From NCBI GenBank assembly GCA_017622175.1, contig JAGARQ010000043.1:1-56400 (forward strand): 56,400 bases of DNA, in the 5' to 3' direction. Under the pieces are notes generated by a model that saw only the letters and a program-made list of their open reading frames with translations, was not told the origin of the DNA and searched no databases. The position numbers and the translations under genes were made by a program. Below, one piece after another: positions 4,413 through 50,791 of this stretch. The DNA comes from Bacilli bacterium (lineage in GTDB: Bacteria > Bacillota_I > Bacilli_A > RF39 > UBA660). How positions within the stretch are numbered: position 1 is the first letter of the stretch; every line of letters begins with the position of its first letter.

Positions 4413-4445
4413 AGTAGTATGTTGAAGATCAGAAAGGTTGTAGAT

Positions 4446-4591
4446 CCAACAGAGCGCCAGGACTCCATGAGTTGACGAGGTTAGTGGTTTTCGAAAGATT
4501 CGGCGGGTGCCACTACGGATGGAAAGTGATTCGTAAGATATATTGCAAAAAGTAAAATCAAAATTATAACAAATAATATATCATCACAGAT
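4446..4591 (+). ncRNA. glmS ribozyme riboswitch
   Basis: The leader of glmS carries the conserved glmS ribozyme elements: AGCGCCAG at the cleavage site, GTTGACGAGG, TCGGCGGGTGCC, then TTCGTAAGAT. Pairing of GATATATT with AATATATC matches the 3' helix that closes the accessory domain in Bacillus. Self-cleavage would fall between A4453 and G4454. This RNA uses glucosamine-6-phosphate as cofactor to cleave the mRNA and shut down synthesis of the same sugar phosphate. It lies 5' of the glmS start with a GGAGG between. Confidence 0.93.
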
Positions 4592-4617
4592 TTTTTTGTC
4601 ATGGAGGAATTTAGATT

Positions 4618-6381
4618 ATGTGTGGAATTGTTGGATATAAAGGAAAACAACAACCAAAAGAAATTTTAATAGAGGGGTTAAAAAATTTAGAATATAGAGG
4701 ATATGATTCTTCAGGAATCGCTTTAAAAGACGGGAAAGAAATTCAAATTATTAGAAGTGTCGGAAAGATATCTTCTTTAGAAGAAAAAGTAAATGGTGAA
4801 AAGTTAATTGATGCATATATGGGTATTGCGCATACTAGATGGGCTACTCATGGTGTACCAAGTGTAGAGAATGCTCATCCTCATAGAGTAGGAAAAGTTA
4901 CTTTAGTACATAATGGTATTATTGAAAATGCTAGTGAATTAAAAGAAAAATTATTAAAAGAAAAAGTAGTTTTTAATAGTGAAACTGATACTGAAGTAGC
5001 ATGTGCTCTTATTAATAAATATTATGAGGGAGATGCTGTTAAAGCTATTAATAAAGCTATTAAGGAATTAAAAGGTTCTTATGCTTTTTGTATTTTCTTT
5101 GAAGATAGTGATAAGTTATATGCAGTTAGAAAGGATTCTCCACTTATTGTAGGTTATGGAGAAGATGAAGTTTATGTTGCTTCTGATATAGCTGCGATTA
5201 TTAATTATACAAATAAGTATAGTTTAATTGATGAAAATGAAGTTGTAGAAATTAGCGATAAAGTTAAAGTTACTTTAAAAGGTAAAGAAGTTAAAAAAGA
5301 AGTTTTAACTGCAACTATAACAGCTGATTCTAAAGATAAATGTGGTTATGAACACTATATGTTAAAAGAAATAATGGAAGAACCAGTAGTGCTTGAAAAA
5401 ACATTAAAACCATATGTAGATAATTTAGATAAGTTACCTGATTTAACTAAGTATGAAGAAATTCATATAGTAGCATGTGGTTCTGCGATGTATGCAGGTA
5501 TGATTGGTAAAACTTTAATTGAAGAAAATTCTAACTTAAGAGTAACTGTTGAAGTTGCTAGTGAATATCGTTATAAGAAAGTTATTTATGATAGAAAAAC
5601 TTTAGTTATTTTAATTAGCCAATCAGGTGAAACTGCAGATACTATTGCGGCTATGAGAAAGGCAAAACTTGCTGGTATTGAGACACTTGCTATTGTTAAT
5701 GTAGTTGGTTCAACTATTGCTAGAGAAAGTGGTAGTCAAATATTTATTGAAGCCGGTCCAGAAATTGCAGTTGCTACTACAAAAGCTTATATGTTACAAG
5801 TTGCTATTTTATCACTTCTTGCATATAAAGCTGCATTATGTAGTGGACTTGATGATAAGAAGGTAATGGCTGAAATTAAGAAGATACCAAGAATGGTTAG
5901 AGAAATTTTAGATAGAAGAGATGATTATTTAGAGGTTGCTAAAGCAATTTATAAACGTGAAGATATTTTCTTTATTGGTAGAAAAATTGATTTTGCTGTT
6001 TCTATGGAAGGAAGTTTAAAATTAAAAGAAGTTTCTTATATTCATAGTGAAGCATATCAAGCAGGAGAGTTAAAACATGGTACTATTTCATTAGTAGATG
6101 ATGGTACTCCAGTTATTTCAATTATTACTGATAAAGATATTAAAGAAAAAACTATTAGTAATGTTCAAGAGGTTAAAGCTAGAGGCGCTAAATGTATTAT
6201 CATTAGTAATGAAGAAATTACAGGATATGATCATTTAATTCAAGTTCCTAAGATGAGTGATTTCTTCCAACCGTTAGTAGTTGTTCCTTGTTTACAATTA
6301 ATTGCTTATGAGGTTGCTAAGCTTAGAGGTTGTGATATAGATAAACCTAAAAATCTTGCTAAGAGTGTAACTGTTGAGTAG
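4618..6381 (+). CDS. glmS: Glutamine--fructose-6-phosphate aminotransferase
   Basis: A 587-residue enzyme making glucosamine-6-phosphate from fructose-6-phosphate and glutamine, the first step toward UDP-GlcNAc and peptidoglycan. MCGIVGYKG supplies the N-terminal nucleophile Cys after Met removal. HTRWATHG and EYRGYDSSG are glutaminase-domain motifs. Two SIS sugar-isomerase domains follow, with ISQSGETADT and the C-terminal KNLAKSVTVE ending. Length is close to the family's usual 600. It is preceded by its own ribozyme and followed by a terminator, so it is a single-gene unit under feedback control. Confidence 0.97.
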   Translation: MCGIVGYKGKQQPKEILIEGLKNLEYRGYDSSGIALKDGKEIQIIRSVGKISSLEEKVNGEKLIDAYMGIAHTRWATHGVPSVENAHPHRVGKVTLVHNGIIENASELKEKLLKEKVVFNSETDTEVACALINKYYEGDAVKAINKAIKELKGSYAFCIFFEDSDKLYAVRKDSPLIVGYGEDEVYVASDIAAIINYTNKYSLIDENEVVEISDKVKVTLKGKEVKKEVLTATITADSKDKCGYEHYMLKEIMEEPVVLEKTLKPYVDNLDKLPDLTKYEEIHIVACGSAMYAGMIGKTLIEENSNLRVTVEVASEYRYKKVIYDRKTLVILISQSGETADTIAAMRKAKLAGIETLAIVNVVGSTIARESGSQIFIEAGPEIAVATTKAYMLQVAILSLLAYKAALCSGLDDKKVMAEIKKIPRMVREILDRRDDYLEVAKAIYKREDIFFIGRKIDFAVSMEGSLKLKEVSYIHSEAYQAGELKHGTISLVDDGTPVISIITDKDIKEKTISNVQEVKARGAKCIIISNEEITGYDHLIQVPKMSDFFQPLVVVPCLQLIAYEVAKLRGCDIDKPKNLAKSVTVE

Positions 6382-48473: not shown

Positions 48474-48502
48474 TTGACAAATTATTTTTAATATGATATA
48501 AT
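48474..48502 (+). promoter_or_regulatory. Perfect sigma-A promoter of the large RNA
   Basis: TTGACA (48474-48479) and TATAAT (48497-48502) are both exact consensus with a 17-base spacer. A start near 48509 would begin the structured RNA. Strength fits an abundant noncoding RNA. Confidence 0.85.
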
Positions 48503-48508
48503 TATCTT

Positions 48509-49110
48509 CGTAATTGATGGCACATTATTCTAGTCAATTACTTTACTAGGAAGACGAAATTAAAAAGTCGTTAAAGGGCATATCGATGAAACCTTTGGTG
48601 TCTGCTTCTTACGCCCAGTTTGGGGTGGATGCTGAAGATGAAAGATATAGGGCGCTCGTAATGGCATACGATCAACGACCCTGTATCTATGGAGACCTAT
48701 TGTTGTAGCAAACCTATACGTACAGACTGATGGATTTGTTATGAGGTAGGATAGAACCTGCAATGTGGCGAAAGCTATGTGCAGTGTAGCCTGTCTTGAG
48801 TGAAAATATTGGGATAAATGAACTACTTTATTTATAGGCGGCCACCTATTAGTAAATGATTGCGTTTTGAAATTATTTTTGCAAAAAAGAATTAGAAGTA
48901 GAGTGTTGGGGAGGAAATCTCCTAGGGTGCTTTTAATATAGGATTGCAGTGGGCACTAAGTGGTAATCAAGTCGTATGAACGGTGACGTCATACTTGCTT
49001 CAGTAAAGGGGAACCGCATTATTGGTAACGGTAATGTTGAGGTGAGAGAAATTCTACTTGACCTAAGGCTCAGAGTTTACTATATTAACGCCATTACTTA
49101 TTTTTATAAA
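48509..49110 (+). ncRNA. Large structured RNA, probable OLE RNA
   Basis: About 600 nt with no supported reading frame lies between a perfect promoter and a membrane-protein gene. It is folded. CTGCA/TGCAG (48758-48784) encloses GGCGAAAGCT, a GNRA-capped stem. GATATAGGG (48644-48652) pairs with CCCTGTATC (48679-48687) around an inner TCGTA/TACGA hairpin. CAAGT-GTATG pairs with CATAC-TTG near 48970-49000. Size and position directly upstream of an OapA-like gene fit OLE RNA, which is about 600 nt in Bacillus relatives and binds OapA at membranes. Base composition is richer in GC than the surroundings. Identification rests mainly on context. Confidence 0.75.
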
Positions 49111-49111
49111 T

Positions 49112-49138
49112 AATAGTATTTTATATACTATTTTTTTA
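49112..49138 (+). terminator. Terminator/attenuator between large RNA and oapA
   Basis: AATAGTAT (49112-49119) and ATACTATT (49125-49132) pair around TTTAT and are followed by T's. It would end the RNA while letting partial readthrough express the downstream gene. Confidence 0.65.
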
Positions 49139-49164
49139 TTAGTTTAAAGGAGTTTAAAAGGAAT

Positions 49165-49761
49165 ATGAAAAAATGTACTGAGAAGGAAGAACTGAAAAAC
49201 TTAATAGTACAAACAAGAAGAAAAGAAAAGATAAAAAAGGAACATGTTAATGTTAAATGGATTATTGAAATAGTTATAATGGCATTTACTATTTCATTTG
49301 CATTGTCATTTGTTTCACAAACAACAATACCAAAATTATCTACTTGGATTGGTGTAGTTATTACCTTAATATTCATTGGATTAGGTATTATCTTTGATAT
49401 TGTGGGAGTTGCTGTGAATAGTGCAGATGAAAAGGTATTTCATTCTATGAATGCTAGAAAAGTAAAGGGGTCAAAAGTAGCTGTTATTTTTAAGAAAAAT
49501 GCTGATAAGGTATCTAGTTTCTGTAATGACGTTATTGGAGATATTTGTGGTATTATTTCTGGTGCAGCTGGGACAACTATTGCAGTTAATATTGCTAAGT
49601 CATTAAATGTTGAATTATTATTTGTGAATTTAACTGTTGCAGCAATAATTGCAGCTTTAACTATTGGTGGAAAAGCTATGGGTAAAAGTTTTGCAATGAA
49701 TAAGAGTGATATTATTCTTTATGAATTTGCTAAAATAGTTTCTATATTTTATAAGGGATAG
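49165..49761 (+). CDS. oapA: OapA-like OLE-RNA-associated membrane protein
   Basis: A 198-residue membrane protein with a basic N-terminal arm (residues 8-30). About four hydrophobic segments follow (33-50, 62-84, about 126-144, 152-170). FDIVGVAVNSADEKVFHSM and NADKVSSFCNDVIGDICG are conserved-looking; the latter holds D122-x3-D126, the DxxxD motif reported for OapA. The family partners OLE RNA and is linked to Mg2+ and stress responses. It begins about 55 bases after the RNA with AAAGGAG. An uncharacterised CorB-like annotation is the alternative name. Identification by family recall and context. Confidence 0.75.
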   Translation: MKKCTEKEELKNLIVQTRRKEKIKKEHVNVKWIIEIVIMAFTISFALSFVSQTTIPKLSTWIGVVITLIFIGLGIIFDIVGVAVNSADEKVFHSMNARKVKGSKVAVIFKKNADKVSSFCNDVIGDICGIISGAAGTTIAVNIAKSLNVELLFVNLTVAAIIAALTIGGKAMGKSFAMNKSDIILYEFAKIVSIFYKG

Positions 49762-49810: not shown

Positions 49811-50791
49811 ATGGTAAAGAAAAGAAATCAAGCAATCCAAATATTAAGAGTAGTTGCATGTATTATGGTTTTCTTTGTACATTTTGGACAACGTTTATCA
49901 ATAACAGGAACAATTGGTTCTTTATTTGATTTTGGTAAATATGGTGTTCAATTGTTTTTTCTTATAAGTGGTTTCTTAGCTGCTAAAACGTTTAAAGAAA
50001 ATAAGAAAGTAAATATAAAAGAATATTATATTAAAAGAGCAATTACATTATTACCTTTATATTATTTTGTTATTTTAATTTATTTTATTTTAGAAAATAT
50101 TTGTAATAATTATATGGATACTATTCCAATTGATAATACTGGTTTATATTGGTTTAGATATATATTTTTATTAAATGGATTTATTAATAGTGATACGTAT
50201 TTTTGGTCTAACTTAGGTATTACTTGGACAATTCCAATATTTGCATTTTTTTATTTAATGGCTCCATTCATATTGAAGAAGGTTAAGAATTTTTCATCTT
50301 CTATAGTTTGTTATATATCTATTTTTGGTGTTAGTAGAGTATTAAATTATATTTATGAGTGTAATATATTTACTTATATTCATTATTTATTTTTAGGGGT
50401 TTTATTATATTATTCTATAAAAGAAAAGAAAGAAGTAATTACTTCGTTAGTATTTTTAGTTTTATGTTTAGTTGCGGGGATTTTTCTAAAGATTGAATGG
50501 TTATATGTATTTGTATTTTGTTCTATTATTTTATTGTTATCAAAAGTTAAATTTAAGTTACCTAAATTTTTAGAAAAGATTATTAATGTTTTAGATAAGT
50601 ATTCTTATACTTTATATCTTGGACATGGTGTTATTTTTTGTGGGATATTAGATAAATTAATTTTATTTGGTACTTCATGAATTATTATTTTATTAATTGC
50701 AATATTTGGTACTTGTTTATTTACTTTTATAGTTGGTAAGTATATTGAGAAACCTATGCAAAGAATTCTTTCTAAAAAACTTTTAGATTAA
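49811..50791 (+). CDS. Acyltransferase family 3 membrane protein with in-frame UGA
   Basis: ATG 49811 (after AGGGTGATAAGG) gives 289 codons to a UGA at 50678, then 36 more codons to UAA at 50789. Residues before it match acyltransferase_3 (OafA-like): IQILRVVACIMVFFVHFG at the N-terminus, GVQLFFLISGFLAAKTF, and several transmembrane helices. Beyond the UGA the sequence is a last helix (IIILLIAIFGTCLFTFIVG) ending YIEKPMQRI, the conserved 'EKP' C-terminus. A Trp at this point before the last helix fits the family. So the gene is probably intact and UGA is read; otherwise it lacks its last helix. It would O-acylate a surface glycan. Confidence 0.75.

Follow-up and report, generated by a model that had tools for sequence, protein, structure and literature searches.

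A 56,400-nucleotide stretch of a low-GC metagenome-assembled genome (MAG) of uncultured gut Bacilli, hereafter called the window (contig JAGARQ010000043.1, assembly GCA_017622175.1), very probably carries a functional ole-oapA locus whose products would form an OLE-OapA membrane particle. The OLE type, the partner set, and related gut MAGs point to RF39 as the probable order of the host. OLE is a large structured bacterial RNA, among the largest that have no assigned reaction, and the binding of OLE by OapA and its anchoring in the membrane have been demonstrated in Halalkalibacterium halodurans. At the present locus, a dedicated strong promoter would give rise to an OLE RNA of roughly 600 nt, most transcripts would probably stop at a hairpin directly after OLE, and oapA would be made by read-through or from another start. 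OapA, a CNNM-like membrane protein, would bind OLE and hold the RNA in the membrane, and the OLE dimer together with OapA would constitute a membrane particle serving Mg2+ homeostasis and stress adaptation, which at this locus would likely do without OapC and probably also without OapB.

OLE RNA identity and structure

When the window was scanned in full against Rfam, the OLE model (RF01071; gathering score, 50 bits) matched positions 48501 to 49110 of the plus strand, with a score of 399.8 bits (E = 5e-114) across the entire model (positions 1 to 616), identifying an OLE RNA of the full-length type. The GC content of this stretch is 40%, compared with 27.9% for the window, placing it in the top 1% among windows of equal length. 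The initial annotation had taken this GC-richer, structured RNA of ∼600 nt for OLE and proposed a covariance-model search, and the end-to-end match bears this reading out. OLE is present as a single copy in the 1.43-Mb, 66-contig host genome. The accompanying statement that OLE RNAs are few in number is incorrect, with 2,822 matches reported for Bacillota in 2024, including those of the gut clades RF39 and TANB77 (PMC11332333). Elsewhere in the window, a glmS ribozyme (positions 4442 to 4592, 68.4 bits) lies ahead of the gene at 4618.

The window OLE retains 155 of the 159 model pairs, with 141 being canonical and 14 noncanonical, and the 4 missing pairs belong to one small hairpin (model positions about 424 to 435). 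Among 25 OLE RNAs from the same family, which share 53 to 95% identity with the window copy, double-sided changes were found in 119 of the 155 pairs, compared with 54 to 73 in slid controls, and 87.7% of the pair cells were canonical, compared with 38 to 45% in these controls; the consensus secondary structure thus has compensatory-change support across the family. For the P3/P3.1 helix (5' strand at 48535 to 48545 of the plus strand, 3' strand at about 48899 to 48908), duplex folding indicated that strand pairing is possible in 25/25 relatives, with most pairs varying on both sides, and published cryo-EM-based models place this helix across the membrane (PMC12265935).

The loops L5 (ACGCCCAGU) and L6.1 (AAUGGCAU), located at 48606 to 48671 of the plus strand, are near-invariant in the family when aligned, and their role in dimerization has been described (PMC12265935, PMC12286853). 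The P9.3 arm (48821 to 48862, plus strand) bears a palindromic GGCC loop (CGGCCA), for which a kissing interaction is described in the cryo-EM papers, and both this P9 loop and the A-rich P4 loop are retained in most OLE RNAs of the family. At the sequence level, the dimerization elements (P4 A-rich loop, L5/L6.1, and P9 GGCC loop) are conserved in the window OLE. Three altered P9.3 loops in the family remain palindromic, while the wider set, from which loop extraction was poor, yielded only GGCC or nonpalindromic loops. A palindrome in P4a (AUCGAU; window positions 48573 to 48592), located near a mapped OapA site, persists only in the window OLE and in L121, L124, and L131; the other full-length relatives carry changes in it, and RNAs of the short OLE type have a shortened version (corresponding region in L137 to L142).

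OapA and its predicted fold

The open reading frame at 49165 to 49761 of the plus strand encodes a 198-amino-acid membrane protein with a basic N-terminal arm, and phmmer matched it to the gene following OLE in about 100 comparison loci, Halalkalibacter included, which had been fetched by the OLE core motif. Its identity to the Alicyclobacillus and Halalkalibacter proteins is ∼30 to 36% (about 36% to OapA of Halalkalibacter wakoensis). The residues D78, G102, D122, G125, D126, G133, K170, and K174 are invariant among 47 OapA sequences, so that the DxxxD motif noticed earlier at residues 122 to 126 is not only present as described but also fully conserved, and D122/D126 align with D100/D104 of the H. 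wakoensis protein, the numbering used for the PM1 mutations (PMC9723947).

Because no Pfam or NCBIfam family model matched above its cutoff (the similarity to PF01595 fell below it), the assignment was tested through homologs and fold. The AlphaFold2 model built from a 47-row alignment had a pLDDT of 88.7, and its top five Foldseek matches, including 7m1t, 7m1u, 7cff, and 7cfg, were all CNNM/CorB/CorC structures (probability of 0.85 to 1.00, TMq of 0.46 to 0.56, and E values from 5e-3, the best, to 1.5). The predicted fold thus resembles that of CNNM Mg2+ transporters, a likeness that has also been reported for OapA of H. halodurans (PMC11332333). Homology to genes beside OLE in other Bacillota, together with this CNNM-like predicted fold, upholds the proposal that the gene after the RNA is oapA.

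Transcription of the locus

A sigma-A-type promoter (TTGACA-17-TATAAT with an extended -10 TG; 48474 to 48502, plus strand) lies directly ahead of OLE. As initially annotated, it is exact, fitting the consensus at 12/12 positions as the only such site in the region, and transcription would be expected to start at about 48509. This promoter is kept in relatives: across 23 same-family loci, the best site at the corresponding position had on average 0.87 mismatches, compared with 3.87 in shuffled sequences, and 18 of them had 0 or 1 mismatch, which occurred in 0.4% of the shuffles. At nearly all family loci, the promoter is situated ∼19 to 29 nt upstream of a conserved TCTAGT. Downstream, the small terminator noted between RNA and gene corresponds to an AT-rich, terminator-like hairpin, AATAGTA(TTTTATA)TACTATT, followed by a T run (49112 to 49140, plus strand; -4.7 kcal/mol), which a stock terminator scan misses because it is AT only except for one G-C pair. 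Hairpins with a T run, differing in sequence, follow OLE at 14 of 25 same-family loci, compared with about 1 expected from shuffles. Given that promoter and hairpin are kept in place among relatives, OLE is supported as a transcription unit of its own. The ribosome-binding site of oapA (AAAGGAG region, 49147 to 49152, plus strand) was recognized by eye; some transcripts may read through into oapA, and the intervening terminator might, as initially suggested, provide dosage control.

The order of OLE, terminator-like hairpin, and oapA, which recurs in many relatives, would also suit an RNA that serves as an extended 5' leader, controlling oapA by attenuation at the hairpin rather than acting as a free particle RNA. 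This is improbable, however, since the entire ornate structure and the dimer loops are conserved, OLE in H. halodurans is an abundant RNA of ∼630 nt (PMC9723947), and two OLE RNAs of the family without a neighboring oapA (L130, G005:C3:30733-31341; L133, G036:C19:42076-42678) still keep a promoter-like site and a hairpin. In G005, OLE and oapA sit on separate contigs, and the search of G036 yielded no oapA either beside OLE or elsewhere in the genome, so a shared OLE-oapA transcript is not obligatory. Even less probable is that the window OLE is a degenerating remnant that has survived by chance: the clade has undergone genome reduction and one relative (G027) contains a broken copy, but pairs are retained with compensation among relatives, the promoter is intact, OapA is conserved, and same-genus copies are 92 to 95% identical, all of which contradicts decay in favor of a functional locus. 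The broken copy (L143, G027:C3:70010-70394) is a second, incomplete OLE that is missing the conserved 5' part and ends at a contig edge, with the intact copy on another contig, and may represent a decayed copy, contamination, or a chimera; its contig is equal in length to that of L113. Another large RNA class (ROOL, GOLLD, or RNase P), which along with a protein unrelated to OapA would have spoken against the initial annotation, is refuted with near certainty by the whole-model match, as OLE is the sole Rfam match at 48501 to 49110 and the protein is related to OapA.

Distribution of OLE and OapA within the family

OLE was detected in 25 of 37 family genomes and OapA in 23 of these 25, compared with 0 of the 12 OLE-less genomes; all 23 same-family genomes with OapA also have OLE, and the two therefore co-occur tightly within the family. 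In G020, oapA is cut by a contig end. Outside the family, the OapA search gave a single match (G056, E = 4e-9), which is a CNNM protein. The majority of the family OLE RNAs are full length (543 to 613 nt, 332 to 435 bits), and six are short (∼480 to 515 nt, 227 to 248 bits). The two short ones inspected, L138 and L141, have no counterpart of the model P7/P8 region, which the full-length window OLE retains. OLE RNAs of RF39 commonly belong to variant 2, without P7 and P8 (Fernando and Breaker 2024, PMC11332333), and L138 and L141 look like this published type, although the label applies by resemblance only, because the bit-score classes of that study were based on another model. With full-length and short OLE RNAs alternating between genera and OapA nearly always kept, the family offers a natural comparison for working out the RNA elements and partners that are required.

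Genetic code

The suspected reassignment of UGA was not sustained. UGA as Trp (code 4) was rejected, as the genome encodes release factor RF2 (515.6 bits), whose gene retains the classical UGA frameshift site intact (MEKKEMKKVLEKNLEIVTNLWRSL followed by CTT TGA C, with GGAGG upstream), and UGA serves as a stop. TGA ends 4 of 46 plus-strand open reading frames, and UGA was likewise concluded to be a stop in RF39 (PMC8629427). The acyltransferase-3 gene after oapA contains an in-frame TGA (window positions 50678 to 50680), past which the frame stays open for 36 codons and is closed by the stop at 50791. This TGA is best explained by a nonsense mutation in an accessory gene, given that neither of the two same-genus genomes has the acyltransferase in the interval from oapA to the ABC-F gene.

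Other OLE partners and a possible minimal system

OapC (YbxF) is a member of the L7Ae family and OapB is a KOW protein; both are essential in H. halodurans but not in all OLE clades. A search of the host genome (95% complete), whose control worked, found no L7Ae-family protein and hence no OapC. The only two open reading frames with KOW matches, obtained with a short KOW profile and without a YbzG control, were read as L24 and NusG, and thus no OapB is evident. RF39 and TANB77 have been described as largely devoid of OapB and OapC (PMC11332333), and OapC is accordingly not required for the OLE class, being reported absent from OLE-bearing organisms of these clades. The host genome does encode bS21 (PF01165 search), a reported OLE partner (PMC12054373), and, away from the locus, a separate CNNM-CBS protein of about 340 amino acids without a CorC domain.

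The CNNM-CBS protein without CorC is recorded at G000:C33:32922-33464 (L144), in an OLE-bearing genome. Within the family, CNNM-CBS and OLE occur together only in the genus of G000, against a general anticorrelation. Ribosomal protein bS20 had no match in the whole G000 genome, possibly owing to an assembly gap. Replacement of OLE by MpfA at the family level was considered and rejected, strong CNNM matches being found in 3 of the 25 genomes with OLE and in 1 of the 12 without it.

It is conceivable, although less likely than not, that a full-length OLE particle working with OapA (perhaps also bS21) alone, beside a CNNM-CBS magnesium protein, constitutes a natural minimal system. If so, OapB and OapC would be dispensable even for an RNA that still has P7, P8, and the P13 loop. 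The locus adds one OLE-OapA pair to thousands, in a clade already reported to carry OLE, and its value lies in belonging to a family that appears to manage with a reduced partner set.

Comparison with known systems

The window locus shares with OLE/OapA of H. halodurans the full-length architecture, an adjacent oapA, a promoter of its own, the equivalent DxxxD motif, and a CNNM-like fold. It differs in that its RNA does not have one 4-pair model hairpin (about 424 to 435), OapC was not found and OapB is not evident in its genome, and its source is a gut MAG rather than a cultured alkaliphile. Compared with the CNNM magnesium transporters MpfA and CorB, the predicted OapA fold matches their membrane domain, whereas the CBS and CorC domains are absent from OapA. 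The OLE RNAs of the RF39 clade (PMC11332333) likewise come from uncultured gut Bacilli that keep OapA, with OapB and OapC missing there; in contrast, the window copy is full length with P7/P8, and both OLE types occur in its family.
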